Shown piece by piece: positions 1 to 6,410 of a DNA stretch of 6,410 bases. Numbering within the stretch: position 1 is the stretch's first letter; the number at the start of each line of letters is the position of its first letter. Source of the DNA: an uncultured Lachnospiraceae bacterium (GTDB taxonomy: Bacteria; Bacillota_A; Clostridia; Lachnospirales; Lachnospiraceae); the NCBI GenBank assembly GCA_902787595.1, contig CADAHD010000376.1:1-6410 (forward strand). Reading direction: 5' to 3'. The position numbers and the translations under genes are program-made. The notes under the pieces are model-generated. The model made no database searches. It had not been told where the DNA came from and saw only the letters and a list, made by a program, of their open reading frames with translations.

Positions 1-273
1 CTCTATATCCGTAAAGAGGGCAAAAATGCAGAGCTGATCGACGAAAAGGGAAATGTCACAAAGGTGCGAAAGAGCCTGCAGCAGGTCTTTGACGAGCTTG
101 GGAGTGAGGAATTTATCTTTACGGACAGGGGCTGCATCGTGAATATCATCCATGTCATGCAGATAAAAGATTCCGAAGCTGTTATGAAAAACGGTGAGCG
201 CCTTCCGGTGAGCAGGTCGCATCTGCAGGATGTCAAGTTAAAGATCAATGCATACTGGGGGGAGCACATATGA
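1..273 (+). CDS. LytTR-family response regulator, C-terminal DNA-binding domain (5' end outside window)
   Basis: The frame is open from base 1, and its 90 codons end at TGA (271-273). Visible features are the LytTR-like stretches LYIRKEGKNAELID, a recognition-type segment KVRKSLQQVFDEL, FIFTDRGCIVNIIHV, and the closing GERLPVSRSHLQDVKLKIN. This matches the second half of AgrA/ComE/VirR-type regulators, where the LytTR domain binds tandem 9-10 bp direct repeats and an upstream receiver domain is phosphorylated by a partner kinase. The receiver domain, if present, lies upstream of the window. The gene overlaps the kinase gene by ATGA (270-273), so the two are almost certainly translationally coupled cognate partners. 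A GTG at 64 is in frame but is not a credible start, because it would remove the first third of the LytTR fold. A probable target site lies at 1566-1621. Confidence 0.88.
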   Translation, partial: LYIRKEGKNAELIDEKGNVTKVRKSLQQVFDELGSEEFIFTDRGCIVNIIHVMQIKDSEAVMKNGERLPVSRSHLQDVKLKINAYWGEHI

Positions 274-1574
274 TCCCTGTCATTGTTATCTATACGCTGG
301 CGGTATTTGTCAATATCACAGGAGGTCTGATCGCCTCAGACCGCTGGCTGTCAAAGAGCAGGACAGTCAAAGCTGAACTGATAGCGGCAGCAGCTGCAGC
401 GGCGGCTGTCAGCGCATTTACCTTCCTGGTAAACAAAGGCAATAATGATACGGCGTGTCTGGTATGGGGAGGAGTACTCTGCATGCTGCTTATCGTTATT
501 GCATTTAAAAATGCGGATAAAAGAATGGCGCTTCTGTTTTTTATGATATACGAAGCGTCTGCGGCCCTTATATATAAAATGGCAGGGACTGCCATCATCA
601 TGCTTTACGGTAAAAAGGAGTTTATGCAGCCGGTGACTATGCAGGGCGGCCTGCTTTTACTGGCGCTTTCGCTTATCATAAGCGCTGTATCGCTGGCGGC
701 ATATCTTAAACAGGACATCTCTTCAAAGCTTTTTCTCAGGATCATGGCTGCAATATCCATCACATCCATAGTGATCGTAAACAGCGCCACGCTCAGGGAG
801 AATGAACTGATAGATAAGGATGAGCTGGATTCTTATATCTACTATGCGCTGTTTGTGCTGATCTCGGCTCTGATACTACAGATGCGTAAGCTTTATGAAG
901 CGGAGCATAAACTGTCGCAGGCAAAAGCGCTGGAAGCGCAGATGCTCGAGCGCGAATATCAGTCCTTAAGCCGCTCCTACGAAACAAATGCAAAGCTTTT
1001 CCATGATTTCAGGAATCATCTGGGGGTAATAAAAAATTACCTGATGAAAGATAAGAACGCCGAGGCACTGGATTATATTGAGGAGCTGACAGGAGGCGAC
1101 AGCGGATTAAACACAGGCGTCTGGACCGGAGACGATACCGTCGATTACCTGATAGGGAGCAAGATGGACGCAGCTCAAAAGAAGGGGATAAGCTTTGAGG
1201 CAGAGGTGGAGTTTCCGAGAAATACCGATTTAAGGAGCAGCGATCTGTGCGCCGTGCTGGCAAACCTTCTGGATAATGCCATAGAGGCGTCGTCAAAGTG
1301 CAAGGATCCTTCCGAAAGAAAGCTAAGGCTTATAATACGCAGGATACGTCAGATGCTGGTGATAAAGGTGGAGAATACTTATGAATATGAGCCTCAGGGA
1401 TCGGGGGACGGGCATTTTAAGAGCTCAAAGACCGACGGCGGACTGCACGGCTGGGGCATAAAGAGCGCGGAAGCGGCAGCACAGAGATATGACGGTACCG
1501 TTCAGAGCCGCTTTGACGGAAAGCTCTTTACTACCGTAGTTACCCTGTCTTTTTCGGGAGTTACGGCCTCTTAA
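270..1574 (+). CDS. GHKL-domain sensor histidine kinase, AgrC/ComD-like (HPK10 type)
   Basis: This is a 434-residue membrane kinase. The N-terminal half (about 1-207) contains six or seven hydrophobic segments (near 1-22, 36-54, 62-79, 87-112, 124-146, 153-171, 187-205), as in peptide-sensing AgrC-like receptors. A short coiled stretch (about 208-240) leads to the dimerisation segment with the phospho-acceptor motif HDFRNH, His245 being the likely phosphorylation site. The ATP-binding domain has the N-box NLLDNAIEAS (332-341) and the G-box GWGIKSAEAAAQRYDG (394-409). The start is ATG 270, preceded by GGAG at 261-264 with a 5-nt spacer, and it overlaps the regulator stop. The second membrane segment contains eight consecutive alanines (39-46). 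By family precedent it would phosphorylate the upstream LytTR regulator in response to an extracellular ligand; the ligand cannot be read from the sequence. Confidence 0.92.
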   Translation: MIPVIVIYTLAVFVNITGGLIASDRWLSKSRTVKAELIAAAAAAAAVSAFTFLVNKGNNDTACLVWGGVLCMLLIVIAFKNADKRMALLFFMIYEASAALIYKMAGTAIIMLYGKKEFMQPVTMQGGLLLLALSLIISAVSLAAYLKQDISSKLFLRIMAAISITSIVIVNSATLRENELIDKDELDSYIYYALFVLISALILQMRKLYEAEHKLSQAKALEAQMLEREYQSLSRSYETNAKLFHDFRNHLGVIKNYLMKDKNAEALDYIEELTGGDSGLNTGVWTGDDTVDYLIGSKMDAAQKKGISFEAEVEFPRNTDLRSSDLCAVLANLLDNAIEASSKCKDPSERKLRLIIRRIRQMLVIKVENTYEYEPQGSGDGHFKSSKTDGGLHGWGIKSAEAAAQRYDGTVQSRFDGKLFTTVVTLSFSGVTAS

Positions 1575-1621
1575 GGACATTAAAATACCGTTTACGGACA
1601 AAAAATGACCATTCGCGGACA
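1566..1621 (+). promoter_or_regulatory. Three 21-bp-spaced GGACA iterons, candidate LytTR operator
   Basis: GGACA occurs at 1575-1579, 1596-1600 and 1617-1621, exactly 21 bp apart (two helical turns). The two downstream units agree over a longer stretch: ACCGTTTACGGACA (1587-1600) and ACCATTCGCGGACA (1608-1621). The upstream unit is weaker (GCCTCTTAAGGACA, 1566-1579) and crosses the kinase stop codon. LytTR regulators are known to bind 9-bp direct repeats of the form [TA][AC][CA]GTTN[AG][TG] separated by 12-13 bp. ACCGTTTAC matches 8 of 9 positions, and its partner ACCATTCGC lies 12 bp further on with two deviations. The position between the regulator/kinase genes and the transporter genes fits activation of the transporter operon. 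Confidence 0.55.
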
Positions 1622-1643
1622 TTCGGGCACGGATGGTTTTTTT
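1608..1643 (+). terminator. Probable intrinsic terminator of the regulator/kinase operon
   Basis: ACCATTCG (1608-1615) can pair with CGGATGGT (1630-1637), with one G-U wobble and a 14-nt loop, and a run of seven T follows (1637-1643). An A-run (1600-1605) lies upstream of the stem, so the element could also work weakly in the other direction. The stem is short and the loop large, so efficiency may be partial. The left arm coincides with the third GGACA unit's recognition half. Confidence 0.5.
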
Positions 1644-1647
1644 ATTG

Positions 1648-1653
1648 TATCAT
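1648..1653 (+). promoter_or_regulatory. Possible -10 element (TATCAT) of the transporter operon promoter
   Basis: TATCAT matches TATAAT at five of six positions. The hexamer 17 bp upstream (1625-1630, GGGCAC) does not resemble a -35 box, which is what one expects of an activator-dependent promoter. It lies about 31 bp downstream of the last candidate LytTR half-site. A start near 1660 would give a leader of about 55 nt before the ATG at 1716. Confidence 0.3.
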
Positions 1654-1675
1654 CACATCATCAGAGGAAAACACA

Positions 1676-1691
1676 GATCCGGATACGGATC
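1676..1691 (+). repeat. Perfect 6-bp inverted repeat in the leader of the small membrane gene
   Basis: GATCCG and CGGATC flank a GATA loop, 10 nt before the AGGAGG ribosome binding site (1702-1707). It could be a small leader hairpin or an operator. It is short enough to be coincidence. Confidence 0.3.
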
Positions 1692-1715
1692 ATAAGTCAA
1701 AAGGAGGAAACGGAT

Positions 1716-1886
1716 ATGAGACATATGATAATAAGAGCGCTTGGAACAATAGCATGGATGGCGTCAGGGATTGTCTGCCTTACACAGGGCAAGACGGATG
1801 TTGCGATAATCTCACTGGCATTAGGCGCTGTATACGGCTTAAGCTGCTACAGGCTGATAAAGCAGAGTAATGAAGGGAAAAAATGA
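1716..1886 (+). CDS. Small two-helix membrane protein of unknown function (56 aa)
   Basis: I do not recognise a named family. The protein is MRHMIIRALG at its start, with two hydrophobic segments (about 5-22 and 29-45) joined by a short polar turn (TQGKTD) and a basic, hydrophilic tail (IKQSNEGKK). ATG 1716 was chosen because AGGAGG sits at 1702-1707 with an 8-nt spacer. A longer in-frame ATG at 1605 has no ribosome binding site and would read through the terminator and operator region. The stop overlaps the ABC ATPase start by ATGA (1883-1886), so the two are probably translated together. Its placement as first gene of a two-component-controlled ABC operon suggests an accessory or immunity-type membrane role, but that is inference. 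No double-Gly leader or Cys-rich core supports a secreted peptide. Confidence 0.75.
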   Translation: MRHMIIRALGTIAWMASGIVCLTQGKTDVAIISLALGAVYGLSCYRLIKQSNEGKK

Positions 1887-2611
1887 TCGAGGGAGCAGAG
1901 GATATGAGTGCAGAACTTCTGAGCATAAAAGGGCTTAACGCCTGGTATAAGGAAGATAAGAAAGTATTAAAGGATTTTTCGTTAAGTCTTAATAAGAATG
2001 AGGTCGTAGGCCTTATAGGTTTAAACGGCGCGGGAAAGACCACTTTCATGAAGGTGCTTACCGGTCTTCTTAAGACTTATGAGGCGGCTGACAAGAAGTT
2101 TGAAGATGCAGAGCTTAACTTCAGGGATGATGCGTTTAAGAAAAGCCGTTATGCGGTATTTGCCGAGGATGATTCGTTTAAGTATTTTACCTTCCGAGAA
2201 TATATGGAATACGTAAGCAGGGCGTACGGCGTAAAAATGCAGGATGTGGCTGATATGGTAAGGGGCTTTCATTTTGAGGAATTTGAAAATACCCTGCTTA
2301 AGGATCTCTCCACCGGAAACAGGAAAAAGGCGTTCCTTATCACGGCATTTGCGCTGCGTCCGAAGCTGCTGCTTTTAGATGAGCCTGTTAACGGGCTTGA
2401 CTTTCAGAGTACGGAATATCTGTACGGACTGATCGCGGGATATAAGGAATACGGAACGCTTTTATTTTCATCACATATACTGGAAAGCATAACGCTCACT
2501 TCGGACAGGGTACTGGTACTGGAAAACGGCGCGATAGCTCAAAAGTTCGAAGGAGAGGAGATAACGGCTGAATCTGTCAGGGAGGCACTTAGATATGAAG
2601 ATGCTGTTTAA
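1883..2611 (+). CDS. ABC transporter ATP-binding protein
   Basis: This single nucleotide-binding domain of 242 residues is the usual length for an ABC-2 type exporter ATPase. Walker A is GLNGAGKTT (46-54). At the Q-loop position the sequence reads VFAEDDSF with Glu95 in place of Gln, as is common in this branch. The signature is LSTGN (142-146) instead of LSGGQ. Walker B is LLLLDEP (162-168) with Glu167 as the catalytic base, the D-loop is NGLD, and the switch His is His198 in SSHILES. ATG 1883 overlaps the preceding gene and has GAAGGG upstream. An in-frame ATG at 1904, with GGGAG 8 nt before it, would begin MSAELLSIKG and is equally plausible, giving 235 residues. It should power the permease encoded immediately downstream. 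The transported substrate is not evident. Confidence 0.93.
   Translation: MIEGAEDMSAELLSIKGLNAWYKEDKKVLKDFSLSLNKNEVVGLIGLNGAGKTTFMKVLTGLLKTYEAADKKFEDAELNFRDDAFKKSRYAVFAEDDSFKYFTFREYMEYVSRAYGVKMQDVADMVRGFHFEEFENTLLKDLSTGNRKKAFLITAFALRPKLLLLDEPVNGLDFQSTEYLYGLIAGYKEYGTLLFSSHILESITLTSDRVLVLENGAIAQKFEGEEITAESVREALRYEDAV
2579..2585 (+). promoter_or_regulatory. Strong ribosome binding site for the original permease start
   Basis: AGGGAGG lies 9 nt before ATG 2595, inside the end of the ATPase gene. It indicates where permease translation was meant to begin. ATG 2720, the first start codon in the frame of the permease body, has no such site. Confidence 0.75.
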
Positions 2612-2678
2612 TGCATTTGCTAAAAAAGTATTCGGTGTAAAGTATGTAATGCGTTTGCGAAAAAAGTATTCGGTGTAA
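2595..2678 (+). pseudogene. Displaced N-terminus of the ABC permease, frame broken by a 38-bp duplication
   Basis: ATG 2595, served by AGGGAGG at 2579-2585, opens a frame reading MKMLFNAFAKKVFGVKY and then VMRLRKKYSV before TAA at 2676-2678 (27 codons). The 12 residues NAFAKKVFGVKY reappear in the -1 frame from 2648, where they lead directly into EGLIKSVFISAVMVMG and the permease body. Removing one 38-bp repeat unit would join MKMLF to this frame and give an uninterrupted 392-residue permease whose start overlaps the ATPase gene by 17 bases. As it stands, the first 29 residues of the permease are not encoded by a conventional start in the right frame. It may be a true mutation, a switchable allele, a recoding site or an assembly error. 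Confidence 0.75.
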
Positions 2679-2684
2679 AGTATG
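2609..2684 (+). repeat. 38-bp imperfect tandem duplication, two copies
   Basis: Copy 1 spans 2609-2646 and copy 2 spans 2647-2684. They are head to tail and identical at 36 of 38 positions. The differences are A2615/G2653 and T2621/G2659, which fall at the third base of the two Ala codons in NAFA and so are silent in the permease frame. Because 38 is not a multiple of three, the duplication shifts the frame by -1 relative to the start codon. Confidence 0.95.
2660..2666 (+). other. Candidate -1 frameshift heptamer A AAA AAG
   Basis: Reading from ATG 2595, the zero-frame codons here are CGA AAA AAG, presenting the canonical bacterial slippery heptamer (the type used in E. coli dnaX) in the correct register. 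A -1 slip continues at GTA 2666 into the permease frame, 10 nt before the zero-frame TAA. The product would be 405 residues, with 13 extra residues near the N-terminus. There is no upstream Shine-Dalgarno-like stimulator. It may be coincidental, since AAA AAA is simply Lys-Lys in the original frame. Confidence 0.35.
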
Positions 2685-2689
2685 AAGGT

Positions 2690-2712
2690 CTGATAAAGAG
2701 CGTCTTTATCAG
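2690..2712 (+). repeat. Perfect 10-bp hairpin inside the permease coding region
   Basis: CTGATAAAGA (2690-2699) and TCTTTATCAG (2703-2712) are exact reverse complements around a GCG loop. No T-run follows, so it is not an intrinsic terminator. It begins 23 nt after the A AAA AAG heptamer, further than the usual 5-9 nt for frameshift stimulators, and lies just ahead of ATG 2720. Confidence 0.7.
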
Positions 2713-2719
2713 TGCAGTC

Positions 2720-3811
2720 ATGGTTATGGGGCTTAAAGGGGCAGGCCTGAATATCAATGTGTCGCCGGCTGTACTGTATCTGACTGCGGCGGTATTTTGC
2801 GCAGGAGTGATGTGGAAAGCACTTAATTCCAATGATTTTTCACAGAGCTTCAGTAATATGATAATGATGCCTTTTCCTCAAAAAGCCTTCGTGTTCACTT
2901 ATGTGAGCGTACTTGGGATCTATACTATATTCACCAAGCTTATAGTTGTTATGGCCCTGATCTTTGCGATACATGTTTTTGATGCGCCCCAGACCATCTG
3001 CTGTATACTTGCGGCGTTCTGCGCTGTTTACATGAGCGCGGCATTCTTTGTGAGCCGCAGGGCAAAGGCTGTGGTGCTGCTGTGGGCGGCAGCAGTCATA
3101 GCAGCGATATTTTTGCTTAAGGATATGGGAGCATATCCGATGATCGCAGTGTTTGGCGTCAGCCTGCTGACAGCGGTCATCATTACATTAAACAGCGATG
3201 CTTATGTATTTTATGACCTTGCTGTTAAGAATGAGAGTATCAGATCAGGTGTAAAGAGTCATGCACATGCGCTTGTATGGGTATACCTGTTAAGATACAT
3301 AGGCACCCATAAGAATTATATCGCCAATTCCTTTATTATGTGGGGGATCGCCTGTGCCCTGCCTCTGTATCTTAAGCTCATCGATATGCAGGATATGACG
3401 GGGGCCTTCCTGTATATAGGATATGCCGTTGTGCTTATGAATACGCCTATTGCGATACTTATTTCCTGCGATCCGGATCTTGAGCGCAGCATAAAGGAAA
3501 TGCCCGGAGCAGGCAGATTCTTTTTACCTTACGGTCTGTTTGTATTTGTATACAACATCATATCCGTAACTGTCTATCTTTGCAGCTGGCAGCTGCAGCA
3601 GGGCGGCATAGGGCTGAGCCACGTGGTTCTGGGAGTGATACTTGCTGCTGTCGGTGCAGCGCTCACTATGCTGCTTGAATATTTTGCGCCTGTAAGGAAC
3701 TGGAAGATAGAGAGTGATCTGTGGCATAATCCCAGGAAATACATAGTTCCCTGCGTGATCGTCCTGCTGGCAGCAGGATGGGGCGTGATATCCGGCGCAT
3801 TTATGGGATAG
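2720..3811 (+). CDS. ABC transporter permease, integral membrane (N-terminus displaced by upstream frame break)
   Basis: The protein is highly hydrophobic, with about ten predicted membrane segments and a basic loop in the middle (SRRAKAV). It has the size of an ABC-2-like exporter permease and directly follows its ATPase. Notable stretches include LLRYIGTHKNYIANSFIMW, ISCDPDLERSIKEMPG and WKIESDLWHNPRKYIVP; I cannot assign a named subfamily. The coordinates start at the first ATG of the long frame (363 residues), but this is unlikely to be the native start. No ribosome binding site precedes 2720, the frame is open back to 2624 without ATG, GTG or TTG, and the missing 29 residues, MKMLF plus the segment from 2648, are encoded upstream. 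The intact form would have 392 residues. Whether a functional protein is made depends on how the duplication at 2609-2684 is resolved. The stop is TAG at 3809-3811. Confidence 0.8.
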   Translation: MVMGLKGAGLNINVSPAVLYLTAAVFCAGVMWKALNSNDFSQSFSNMIMMPFPQKAFVFTYVSVLGIYTIFTKLIVVMALIFAIHVFDAPQTICCILAAFCAVYMSAAFFVSRRAKAVVLLWAAAVIAAIFLLKDMGAYPMIAVFGVSLLTAVIITLNSDAYVFYDLAVKNESIRSGVKSHAHALVWVYLLRYIGTHKNYIANSFIMWGIACALPLYLKLIDMQDMTGAFLYIGYAVVLMNTPIAILISCDPDLERSIKEMPGAGRFFLPYGLFVFVYNIISVTVYLCSWQLQQGGIGLSHVVLGVILAAVGAALTMLLEYFAPVRNWKIESDLWHNPRKYIVPCVIVLLAAGWGVISGAFMG

Positions 3812-3819
3812 CTGCCATA

Positions 3820-3849
3820 CGGACCGGGCTTGTTGTTTTTTCGGACCGG
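3820..3849 (+). repeat. Direct repeat CGGACCGG around the -35 region
   Basis: CGGACCGG occurs at 3820-3827 and 3842-3849, 22 bp apart. One copy lies just upstream of the candidate -35 box and the other between -35 and -10. The placement suits a repressor or regulator site, but only two 8-bp copies exist. Confidence 0.35.
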
Positions 3850-3861
3850 CTGTGGTATAAT
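3833..3861 (+). promoter_or_regulatory. Sigma-A-type extended -10 promoter abutting the next start codon
   Basis: A consensus TATAAT at 3856-3861 is preceded by TGG (the TGn extension) and, 17 bp upstream, by TTGTTT (3833-3838). Only six bases separate the -10 box from ATG 3868, so a transcript starting at the usual distance would begin at or within a base or two of the start codon. Confidence 0.65.
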
Positions 3862-3867
3862 CAGGCC

Positions 3868-4353
3868 ATGGATGAGTATGGTTATCAGGGCGGAAATAAT
3901 ATTCCGCCTCAGGGATATTATCAAAGGATGCCTCAAAAGAGGACGAACGCTATGGCAGTGGCATCGCTTGTAATGGCAGTGATGGCTTTACTGACCATAC
4001 TTACGGGACTGGGCCCCGTTTTCTTTGGAAGTATGTCCATATTGTTTGCGGTGCTTTCCAAAGGCAGCGGCAGACGTATGAACGGATCGGCGTTCTGCAG
4101 CGTGATGATATCTGTGGTATCTGTGGCAGCAGGCGTATTTCTTATGATCAAGGTTGCCGATATGATACAGAATAATCCGGGCTTCAGATCAGAGATGGAC
4201 AAGAGCTTTGAAATGATGTACGGCGTGGATTATGATGATTTCGTGGATGGCATGAAGAAATATTACGAAACCGGTGAAATGCCGGAATTTATGGAAAAAA
4301 TGCAGCAGGGCGATTCCCCTTATTATACATTCCCCGGAGGAACGCAGTTATGA
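3868..4353 (+). CDS. DUF4190-like small membrane protein with Gly/Tyr/Gln-rich N-terminus (161 aa)
   Basis: The N-terminal 25 residues are rich in Gly, Tyr, Gln and Pro (MDEYGYQGGNNIPPQGYYQR). They are followed by RTNAMAVASLVMAVMALLTI (about 25-44), a second hydrophobic stretch (47-64), a basic turn GSGRRMNGSAF, and a third hydrophobic segment (74-96). The KTNGxAIASLVxG-like opening, the compact loop and the second hydrophobic unit resemble DUF4190 proteins, whose function is unknown. A hydrophilic acidic tail (MYGVDYDDFVDGMKKYYETG) follows. ATG 3868 was chosen over the longer in-frame ATG 3778, which lies inside the permease gene. ATG 3868 sits right behind a strong promoter and has no clear Shine-Dalgarno. 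The stop overlaps the next gene by ATGA, so both are probably made from one mRNA. Confidence 0.8.
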   Translation: MDEYGYQGGNNIPPQGYYQRMPQKRTNAMAVASLVMAVMALLTILTGLGPVFFGSMSILFAVLSKGSGRRMNGSAFCSVMISVVSVAAGVFLMIKVADMIQNNPGFRSEMDKSFEMMYGVDYDDFVDGMKKYYETGEMPEFMEKMQQGDSPYYTFPGGTQL

Positions 4354-4829
4354 TGGGAGCTATCGGGCCAATAGGATATGGCGGAGTTTACGGCAGCGTA
4401 TCTGCTATGCAGTATGCCGGTTCTGCCTTTGCGGCCGAAAGCAGCTCCGCTTCGGAAGAAACTAAGCGGCTGGGCAAGGTGGAATGCGAGACCTGCAAGG
4501 AAAGGAAATACCAGGACGGCTCTGATGAGCAGGTGTCATTTAAATCCGCTGCAAAGATAAATCCTGCGGCAGTAGAGGCAAAGGTCCGCGGCCATGAACA
4601 GGAACATGTGACCAATGCTTACGATAAGGCGCAGGAGAAGGGCGGCAAGGTTTTAAATGCCAGTGTCAGATTAAAATATTCGGTCTGCCCCGAATGCGGA
4701 CGCAGCTATTGCGCGGGAGGCGAGACCGCCACAACGATAAAGTACAGTGGCGACGATCCCTATAGCCGGAATAATAAATCTATGGGGCAGGAAGCTTTTA
4801 AGGGCAATAACCTGGATCTGGCGGTATAG
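4350..4829 (+). CDS. SprA-like putative zinc metalloprotease with HExxH and Cys motifs (159 aa)
   Basis: The core reads CETCKERKYQDGSDEQVSFK, then KVRGHEQEHVTNAYDKA, where HEQEH (82-86) fits the HExxH zinc-peptidase signature, then CPECGRSYCAGGET. This arrangement (Cys46, Cys49, HExxH, Cys113, Cys116) is what I recall for the SprA-related/CJM1_0395-type putative metalloprotease family common in Clostridia; peptidase activity is inferred from the motif. The first 40 residues are Gly/Ala/Ser-rich without a basic N-terminus, so no clear signal peptide is visible. GGAGGA at 4336-4341 provides a good ribosome binding site for ATG 4350 (an adjacent ATG at 4353 is equivalent), and the ATGA overlap couples it to the DUF4190-like gene. 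The four Cys in two CxxC pairs could bind a second metal. Confidence 0.82.
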   Translation: MMGAIGPIGYGGVYGSVSAMQYAGSAFAAESSSASEETKRLGKVECETCKERKYQDGSDEQVSFKSAAKINPAAVEAKVRGHEQEHVTNAYDKAQEKGGKVLNASVRLKYSVCPECGRSYCAGGETATTIKYSGDDPYSRNNKSMGQEAFKGNNLDLAV

Positions 4830-4835
4830 TATTTA

Positions 4836-5570
4836 ATGAACGGGATCAGATCTTCGGAAGAATTAAAATGCGATGCAAGAGCAAATCTGTTGGGCAGGTA
4901 CGCTAAAGTCGTACCTGTTCATTTATTGTTTCTTTTTGTCAGCGCTACCTTTACGTCCCTCAGCGCGAACATATCATCAAAGCGTTTTGTTCTGGCTTTT
5001 TTCCTGGCCATAGGCATACATGTGCTGGGGCTTGTGCTTGCAAATGTGCTCAGGTTCGGACTTTGCGCGTTTTATATGAATATCAGCTGCAAATATCCGG
5101 CGTCTTTTATAGATATCTTCAGGGGTTTTTCCTTCAGGGATGACAGAGCGGTGCGCATTGCGCTTAAGCTTACGCTGACCCTGCTGGGATGCGAACTTCC
5201 GGGCGTGGCTCTGTACGGCTTGTTCCGCAGTTCGGGCAATGTGTATGTGCTGCCTTTTGCTTCACTCGCGGCATGCATCGGATTGACGATTTACTGCATT
5301 TATTATCTGGGACTGAGTCAGTGTTATTACCTGATACTGGATTTCCCTGATAAAGATACCGAGGAGATAATAAAACTGTCGCGCTGGCTTATGAGGGGAC
5401 AGCGCTTTAAGCTTTTTTATATACATATCAGTTTTATACCGATTTATATTATCAGCGTATTAAGCTGTGGGCTTGGTTTGTTATGGGCTCTGCCCTATGC
5501 TGAGGAAACATTCACATGCTTCCACCTTAATCTTACCAGCGCCGCCGCTTCCGGCTCCCCCCGTGAATGA
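4836..5570 (+). CDS. DUF975 family integral membrane protein (244 aa)
   Basis: The family hallmarks are visible: an N-terminal SSEELKCDARANLLGRY helix, a FIDIFRGF-like element after the second membrane region (91-98), and the C-terminal block SRWLMRGQRFKLFYIHISF (182-200) followed by GLGLLWALPYAEETFTCFH. About five hydrophobic regions are present (near 25-45, 52-80, 107-129, 137-160, 196-219). The function of DUF975 is unknown; these proteins are frequent in Clostridia. ATG 4836 follows the previous stop by six bases. Only a weak GGCGG (4820-4824) could act as ribosome binding site, so it may rely on coupling or on a near-leaderless start from TATAGT (4825-4830). The last dozen residues (TSAAASGSPRE) are GC-rich and unconserved in feel. 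Confidence 0.85.
   Translation: MNGIRSSEELKCDARANLLGRYAKVVPVHLLFLFVSATFTSLSANISSKRFVLAFFLAIGIHVLGLVLANVLRFGLCAFYMNISCKYPASFIDIFRGFSFRDDRAVRIALKLTLTLLGCELPGVALYGLFRSSGNVYVLPFASLAACIGLTIYCIYYLGLSQCYYLILDFPDKDTEEIIKLSRWLMRGQRFKLFYIHISFIPIYIISVLSCGLGLLWALPYAEETFTCFHLNLTSAAASGSPRE
4895..4917 (+). repeat. 8-bp perfect inverted repeat within the DUF975 gene start
   Basis: CAGGTACG (4895-4902) and CGTACCTG (4910-4917) flank a 7-nt loop. Outward G-U, G-U and G-C pairs (4892-4894 with 4918-4920) extend the stem to 11 bp. It falls at codons 20-29 of the DUF975 gene, about 60 nt into the coding region. It has no T-run. Confidence 0.55.
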
Positions 5571-5585
5571 AATTTAGAGGAAATT

Positions 5586-6410
5586 ATGAAAAATAACGAT
5601 GATTATATAGACAACGATCTTGAATTGATCGATCTTTCTAACGACCACATAGAGGCTGCCGGCGCAGGCGCGGCGGATGCAGGAAAGAAGGAAAAAAAGC
5701 GCAGGGCGGAAAAGAAAAAGGGCTTGGTCCCCATTATGATACTTCTTATCCTGCTTTTGCTGTCCCTTGGCTTTTCCGGATTCCTGGCATATCAGATAGA
5801 GCTGCAGAAGCAGGCATTTGCGCAGCTGCAGGCGCAGGAAGAAAAGACTTCGGCGGAGATAAAGGAGTACCAGCGCGCATTGGCAGAGAAGGAAAAAGCA
5901 GAGCCTGCTGAGGCCCCGGAAACAAAAGAGCCCGATCAGCAGCCCTCAGGGGTTACGGGAAGCGTGAGCGCTGTCGAAAAACCTTCTGTCTCGGAAGATG
6001 AACTTATAGCGGATGAGCAGCCTGCTTTACAGGTAAGCGCGGATATTGTCACACCGCAGCTTCAGACCACGGCTTCACAGCCGGCTGCATTGGTAGTCCC
6101 GCAGAGCGTTCAGGATCTAAGGGATGTCATGATGGCAGCGGCATTGAAGGAAGGCGGCGGCCCGATGACAGCGGTCAGGGCCGTATTTAAGGATTATGCT
6201 TTTTATACCGTAGATAAGGATACTTATGAATTTGCGCCTCTGCTGGATAACAGACCGCGTAATACCATCAGGGAGGACCAGATCGTAAAGGATGATGACG
6301 GCACCATCCATTATATGGTTGACGGTGTCGATAAGGGCATACCTATGATAGATGTGTCCGAGTACCAGGGTGTCATTGACTGGAACAAGGTAGCTGCATC
6401 CGGAATAAAG
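5586..6410 (+). CDS. Membrane-anchored GH25 muramidase (lysozyme), 3' end outside window
   Basis: The visible 275 codons begin with an acidic cytosolic segment (MKNNDDYIDNDLELIDL) and a Lys/Arg-rich patch (34-45). A single hydrophobic segment (about 46-69) follows, with the outside-facing part after it. A Gln/Glu/Lys-rich coiled-coil-like stretch (70-105) is followed by a Pro/Glu/Gln/Ala linker (106-175) and a domain of about 75 residues (176-250). The frame then enters GIPMIDVSEYQGVIDWNKVAASGIK, which is the opening strand and helix of glycosyl hydrolase family 25. Asp256 in DVSEYQG corresponds to the conserved active-site Asp; the catalytic Glu lies beyond the window. The family hydrolyses the MurNAc-GlcNAc bond of peptidoglycan. 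ATG 5586 has AGAGG (5576-5580) five bases upstream and follows the DUF975 stop by 15 bases, suggesting cotranscription. Confidence 0.88.
   Translation, partial: MKNNDDYIDNDLELIDLSNDHIEAAGAGAADAGKKEKKRRAEKKKGLVPIMILLILLLLSLGFSGFLAYQIELQKQAFAQLQAQEEKTSAEIKEYQRALAEKEKAEPAEAPETKEPDQQPSGVTGSVSAVEKPSVSEDELIADEQPALQVSADIVTPQLQTTASQPAALVVPQSVQDLRDVMMAAALKEGGGPMTAVRAVFKDYAFYTVDKDTYEFAPLLDNRPRNTIREDQIVKDDDGTIHYMVDGVDKGIPMIDVSEYQGVIDWNKVAASGIK

Follow-up and report, generated by a model that had tools for sequence, protein, structure and literature searches.

In the window, the whole 6,410-nucleotide stretch analyzed here, the permease gene of what looks like a regulated exporter is separated from its natural start codon by a tandem duplication of 38 bp, present in exactly 2.0 copies that are identical at 36 of 38 positions. 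The repeat falls at a step in divergence from the closest related locus, and it probably represents a join between two alleles of the permease gene, made either in the cell or in the course of assembly or library preparation. A join made in the cell, by imprecise recombination, is weakly and tentatively preferred.

A duplicated gene start out of frame

The locus encodes, in this order, a LytTR regulator, a GHKL kinase, a small protein, an ABC ATPase and the permease. The permease gene adjoins that of the ATPase, as is found for ABC-2-type exporter permeases. The small protein, predicted to have 56 residues (1716-1883), is conserved in the related loci L001-L003 (72-98% over 47-56 residues). 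Across the permease family (window 2595-3811, P0002-P0121), the N-terminal motif FxAFAKK[LV]FGxKYE is strongly conserved; Pfam gave at most four weak matches among the 64 members scanned, most of them having none. With 97% identity and a length of 392 residues, P0002 is the closest protein; its sequence begins with MKMLFNAFAKKVFGVKYEGL. A sequence search of the PDB with P0002 returned no match at E <= 1, none of 171 Foldseek matches of the permease model in the PDB reached E <= 0.001, and re-examination of the structure matches with VIA-align placed no chain clearly above the others. As modeled, the permease may loosely resemble the permease of a Mycobacterial ABC efflux pump (PDB 8k1p) and CcmB (8ce1).

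Table 1. Features at the junction of the ATPase and permease genes, in window coordinates
Feature	Position	Strand	Remarks
ABC transporter ATP-binding subunit	1883..2611	+	PF00005; open reading frame
Permease ribosome-binding site AGGGAGG	2579..2585	+	Within the 3' end of the ATPase gene; read in the sequence
Truncated frame from the natural permease start	2595..2678	+	27 codons, then TAA (2676-2678)
Stop codon of the ATPase gene	2609-2611	+	Bases 1-3 of copy 1
Repeat copy 1	2609..2646	+	Ala codons GCA, GCT; 1/38 bases unlike L002
Repeat copy 2	2647..2684	+	Ala codons GCG, GCG; 3/38 bases unlike L002; in frame with the permease body
Permease body	2648..3811	+	Open to the stop codon; first usable start ATG 2720; 97% to P0002
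A AAA AAG heptamer	2660..2666	+	Slippery register of the ATG-2595 frame; -1 slip leads into the permease frame
Perfect 10-bp hairpin	2690..2712	+	Within the coding sequence of the permease; begins 23 nt past the heptamer

By a rough independent-base estimate, about 4e-13 such 38-bp repeats would be expected by chance in the window. Copy 1 begins 14 bases past the A of the permease ATG at 2595, and the frame opened by this ATG reads MKMLFNAFAKKVFGVKYVMRLRKKYSV up to its early stop codon (Table 1). The permease body resumes in the -1 frame within copy 2 as NAFAKKVFGVKYEGLIK..., and the earliest ATG, GTG or TTG of its frame corresponds to residue 30 of the orthologue P0002. An earlier note on this DNA had described the duplication, the AGGGAGG preceding ATG 2595, the stop at 2676 and the re-encoding of the permease from 2648 with no start codon before 2720, all of which were found in the sequence, and its claim that removal of one unit yields a 392-residue protein agrees with the length of P0002. 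Its count of ten helices is an approximation, as the model of P0002 (mean pLDDT 86.7) shows about 11-12 long ones. The two differences between the copies are at third-codon sites, and both are synonymous, in alanine codons of the permease frame.

The homologue search, which was limited to scoring the 7,997 candidates with the most words in common, found 167 proteins, 120 of which are listed. Over the first 45 residues, the N-terminus lost in the window is clear in 119 of these 120 and loose in P0116; none of the 120 begins at the residue encoded by 2720, and none has a doubled N-terminus, which bears out the contention of the earlier note that an N-terminus was lost. Among the related loci, the best 80 of 155 were kept for comparison. 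The gene aligns unbroken from residue 1-4 of P0002 in all 80, and a tandem repeat comparable to that of the window is present near the gene start in none of them; L004, L014, L016 and L030 have weak matches of 12-15 bp only. Judged from these sequences, the permease allele of the window is an exception among its relatives and is abnormal.

In the model of P0002, residues 2-13 form helix 1 and residues 18-36 form helix 2. A product begun at 2720 would be substantially shortened because residues 1-29 include helix 1 and most of what precedes the middle of helix 2. We infer that this allele leaves the exporter inactive or almost so, with a loss of export. Of the two outcomes put forward earlier, loss of function stands if the sequence is real, since the start is lost, whereas the OFF state of a phase switch is not supported, as the copies have diverged and no recurrence was seen in the 80 loci kept.

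A step in divergence at the repeat

The source bacterium is related to uncultured rumen bacteria. The closest relative that was fetched, which does not belong to the same species, is the rumen MAG RUG12463 (genome G001), the locus of which is L002. Window 1-3786 is 93.6% identical to L002 overall, and segmentation of this comparison gave two boundaries only, at about 753 and at 2586 or 2688, depending on which repeat copy is aligned to L002; finer mosaic blocks inside the permease gene were therefore not kept. The difference to L002 amounts to 8.1% in 1-753, to 2.6-2.7% from 754 to the second boundary, and to 8.4-8.5% in the remainder. The support interval of the second boundary (2566-2652 or 2577-2691, according to the copy aligned) spans the repeat, at which a tract exchanged in either direction may have ended. 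About 6% of positions fall within 55 nt of either boundary regardless. The boundary at about 753 is inside the kinase gene, and it forms the left edge of the low-divergence tract of about 1.9 kb that ends at the repeat.

At third-codon positions, 21 of 416 differ from L002 in 1051-2608 as against 41 of 184 in 2648-3199 (Fisher p 1.2e-9). From the ATPase to the permease gene, the third-position difference to L002 goes from 4.1% to 17.2%, and the corresponding rise is about 1.5-fold relative to L001 and L003. A generally faster evolution of the permease relative to the ATPase was considered and set aside as a full account, because a rise of just about 1.5-fold relative to L001 and L003 lets constraint cover only part of the step. 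The changes proper to the window and those proper to L002 both increase past the step, which may therefore stem from either lineage.

Taken separately, copy 1 fits the low divergence rate found to the left, and copy 2 the high rate found to the right. The single difference of copy 1 to L002 has a likelihood of 0.37 at the low rate and of 0.044 at the high rate, and the three differences of copy 2 have likelihoods of 0.055 and 0.17, respectively. At both sites that distinguish the copies, copy 1 has the codons of L001 and L002, and copy 2 has those of none of L001-L003.

Origin of the duplication

If two alleles were joined, the left part, from copy 1 back to about 754, would stem from one that closely resembles the L002 allele, and the right part, from copy 2 onward, from another allele of this permease gene that has diverged further; the two would have been abutted out of register with an overlap of 38 bp. 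In the cell, the tract might have been swapped by homology along its length and its right end closed by a non-homologous join; the resulting frameshift would part the permease from its start and leave the exporter off or nearly so. Illegitimate joins usually show a microhomology of a few bases, and there is none at this one, the flanking bases of which do not match. Homology-facilitated illegitimate recombination, as outlined in PMC3240628, with one side homologous and the other not, would leave such a junction; unlike in such recombination, the join in the window has neither microhomology nor an extra foreign stretch. Against a join in the cell, it can be argued that L002 is a relative from outside the species, that the step is close to the boundary between the ATPase and permease genes and is partly a matter of constraint, that the argument from two changes rests on small numbers, and that the contig itself may be mixed.

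The divergence step and the fit of the copies to two rates count equally for a join made in assembly or library preparation, by which pieces from two coexisting strains would have been abutted with their 38-bp overlap unmerged, the real cells being single-copy. This is possible but somewhat less likely than a join in the cell. It would agree with the absence of microhomology, with the window perhaps being a metagenome contig and with the different nearest relatives of its two parts, as window 1-3786 is closest to L002 of G001, and 3787-6410 has its best match, at 77-78%, in G004; in G001, the latter part is matched elsewhere in the genome at 68%, rising to 82% in one stretch. Conversely, graph assemblers need reads that cross a junction, and a k-mer overlap in assembly would yield identical copies. 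Near 3786-3868, synteny is broken and the nearest relatives of the two sides disagree; downstream follows a set of genes at 3868-4353, at 4350-4829, at 4836-5570 (DUF975) and from 5586 onward, the last of which has no family match and is presumably akin to GH25 lysozymes, judging by a motif. In the three genomes read, G001, G002 and G032, this set has three different upstream neighbors, and the change of synteny may thus be natural, by real rearrangement or transfer; it also raises the chance that the contig is mixed.

Short tandem repeats mostly arise by slippage-type duplication, and the hairpin begins 5 bases past copy 2. The repeat might accordingly have been formed in place, by hairpin-aided replication slippage or template switching, and have acquired two point changes thereafter, giving a loss-of-function allele. 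This origin is rather unlikely. It would make the position of the divergence step at the repeat a coincidence, and two unconstrained changes would both be synonymous with a chance of about 0.056 only (62 of the 103 differences between the permease genes of the window and of L002 are synonymous). The differences between the copies also imply an old duplication, yet the permease body has decayed little, an argument of modest strength. The body differs from P0002 at 13 residues, 4 of which are clearly changes on the side of the window (31, 83, 298, 317), 3 are ambiguous (110, 158, 294), and 6 are on the side of P0002 or common to the window and L002; F31V is the sole difference in a well conserved column (aromatic in 63 of 64). 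When the two changes in 2 x 38 bp are scaled up to a body of equal age and free of constraint, about 21-32 missense changes are expected there. At most 8 missense changes have a probability of 0.06-0.21 even for an old duplication, and the lack of nonsense changes is uninformative, with a probability of 0.34-0.49. On this suggestive evidence, the duplication probably arose recently, is translated in part even now, or is an artifact.

A fresh duplication yields near-identical copies, and one that switches freely should keep them near-perfect. A phase-variable exporter, one of the two possibilities raised in the earlier note, would often gain and lose the duplication, and the window would come from an OFF cell. 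The 38-bp unit, which is not a multiple of three and puts the copies out of frame, and the intact permease body are what such a switch would show. However, the copies are unlike in two positions, a second state has not been observed for this strain, and a comparable repeat is found neither in the 80 loci kept of 155, all single-copy, nor in the N-termini of the 120 proteins listed of 167. The on/off switch is thus not supported, and we regard it as improbable. Capsule genes of pneumococcus serotypes 3, 8, and 37 have been described to switch through reversible duplications of sequence, in work cited in PMC4243769. As in those genes, a short duplication within a reading frame inactivates the permease gene; in contrast with them, for which switching is reported, the copies in the window have diverged, and a two-allele origin fits better. 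In viral contigs, the exact junction pattern had no match, and P0002 had 15 pattern matches, none of which is a relative. Searches of the literature on chimeric contigs, on frameshifting and on duplication that is reversible or recombination that is illegitimate turned up no mention of this locus, a statement that does not extend to everything in print.

Possible residual expression and significance of the allele

Stimulatory stem-loops are usually nearer to the slippery site than 23 nt, and a tRNA-Lys with a CUU anticodon is expected to reduce slippage on A AAA AAG. These points bear on whether the allele is still usefully expressed, by a -1 slip on the heptamer that would yield the permease with a short insert, which is very improbable. 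In its favor, the heptamer has precisely the register needed for slippage, a -1 shift on it leads into the permease frame, and the permease body has suffered little decay. There is, on the other hand, no Shine-Dalgarno (SD)-like stretch upstream in 2640-2659, local folding gives a z-score of -2.84 over 2667-2760 and of only -0.91 over 2570-2720, and the relative G001 has a tRNA-Lys CUU besides UUU, as read from 30 of its 42 tRNA matches. The hairpin was dropped as a stimulator because of its distance of 23 nt and because the single-copy L002 has it too. Its pairing is kept in L002 by a pair of synonymous changes (2692, 2710), and it is absent from L001 and L003. The frame arrangement is not conserved, since the unit is single and the gene runs in a single frame in the relatives compared (best 80 of 155 loci).

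In E. coli dnaX, A AAA AAG acts together with a stem-loop and with an SD-like element that precedes it, giving 70-80% frameshifting according to the account in PMC6787027. The window shares with dnaX the heptamer in slippery register but, compared with the signal summarized there, is devoid of the SD-like element, has its hairpin too far away, and acquires the register only through the duplication. According to PMC9307594, the rate of spontaneous frameshifting in normal translation goes down to 1e-4 to 1e-5, and 68 E. coli genes contain this heptamer. Some permease product might be made by -1 frameshifting in the window, but at most in trace amounts, the stimulatory elements being missing.

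A two-copy repeat that is out of frame in a contig need thus not be a switch. Allele differences between the copies and a divergence step at the repeat help to tell slippage from a join of alleles without recourse to reads. If real, this allele would be an example, from an uncultured bacterium, of a frameshift scar left naturally where two alleles meet. It is a highly speculative proposition, with little chance of being right, that recombination among coexisting strains leaves overlapping allele junctions at exporter starts in rumen-type Lachnospiraceae, as slowly reversible off-states with a leak through A AAA AAG. Should this proposition hold, gene flow itself would generate variable expression states.
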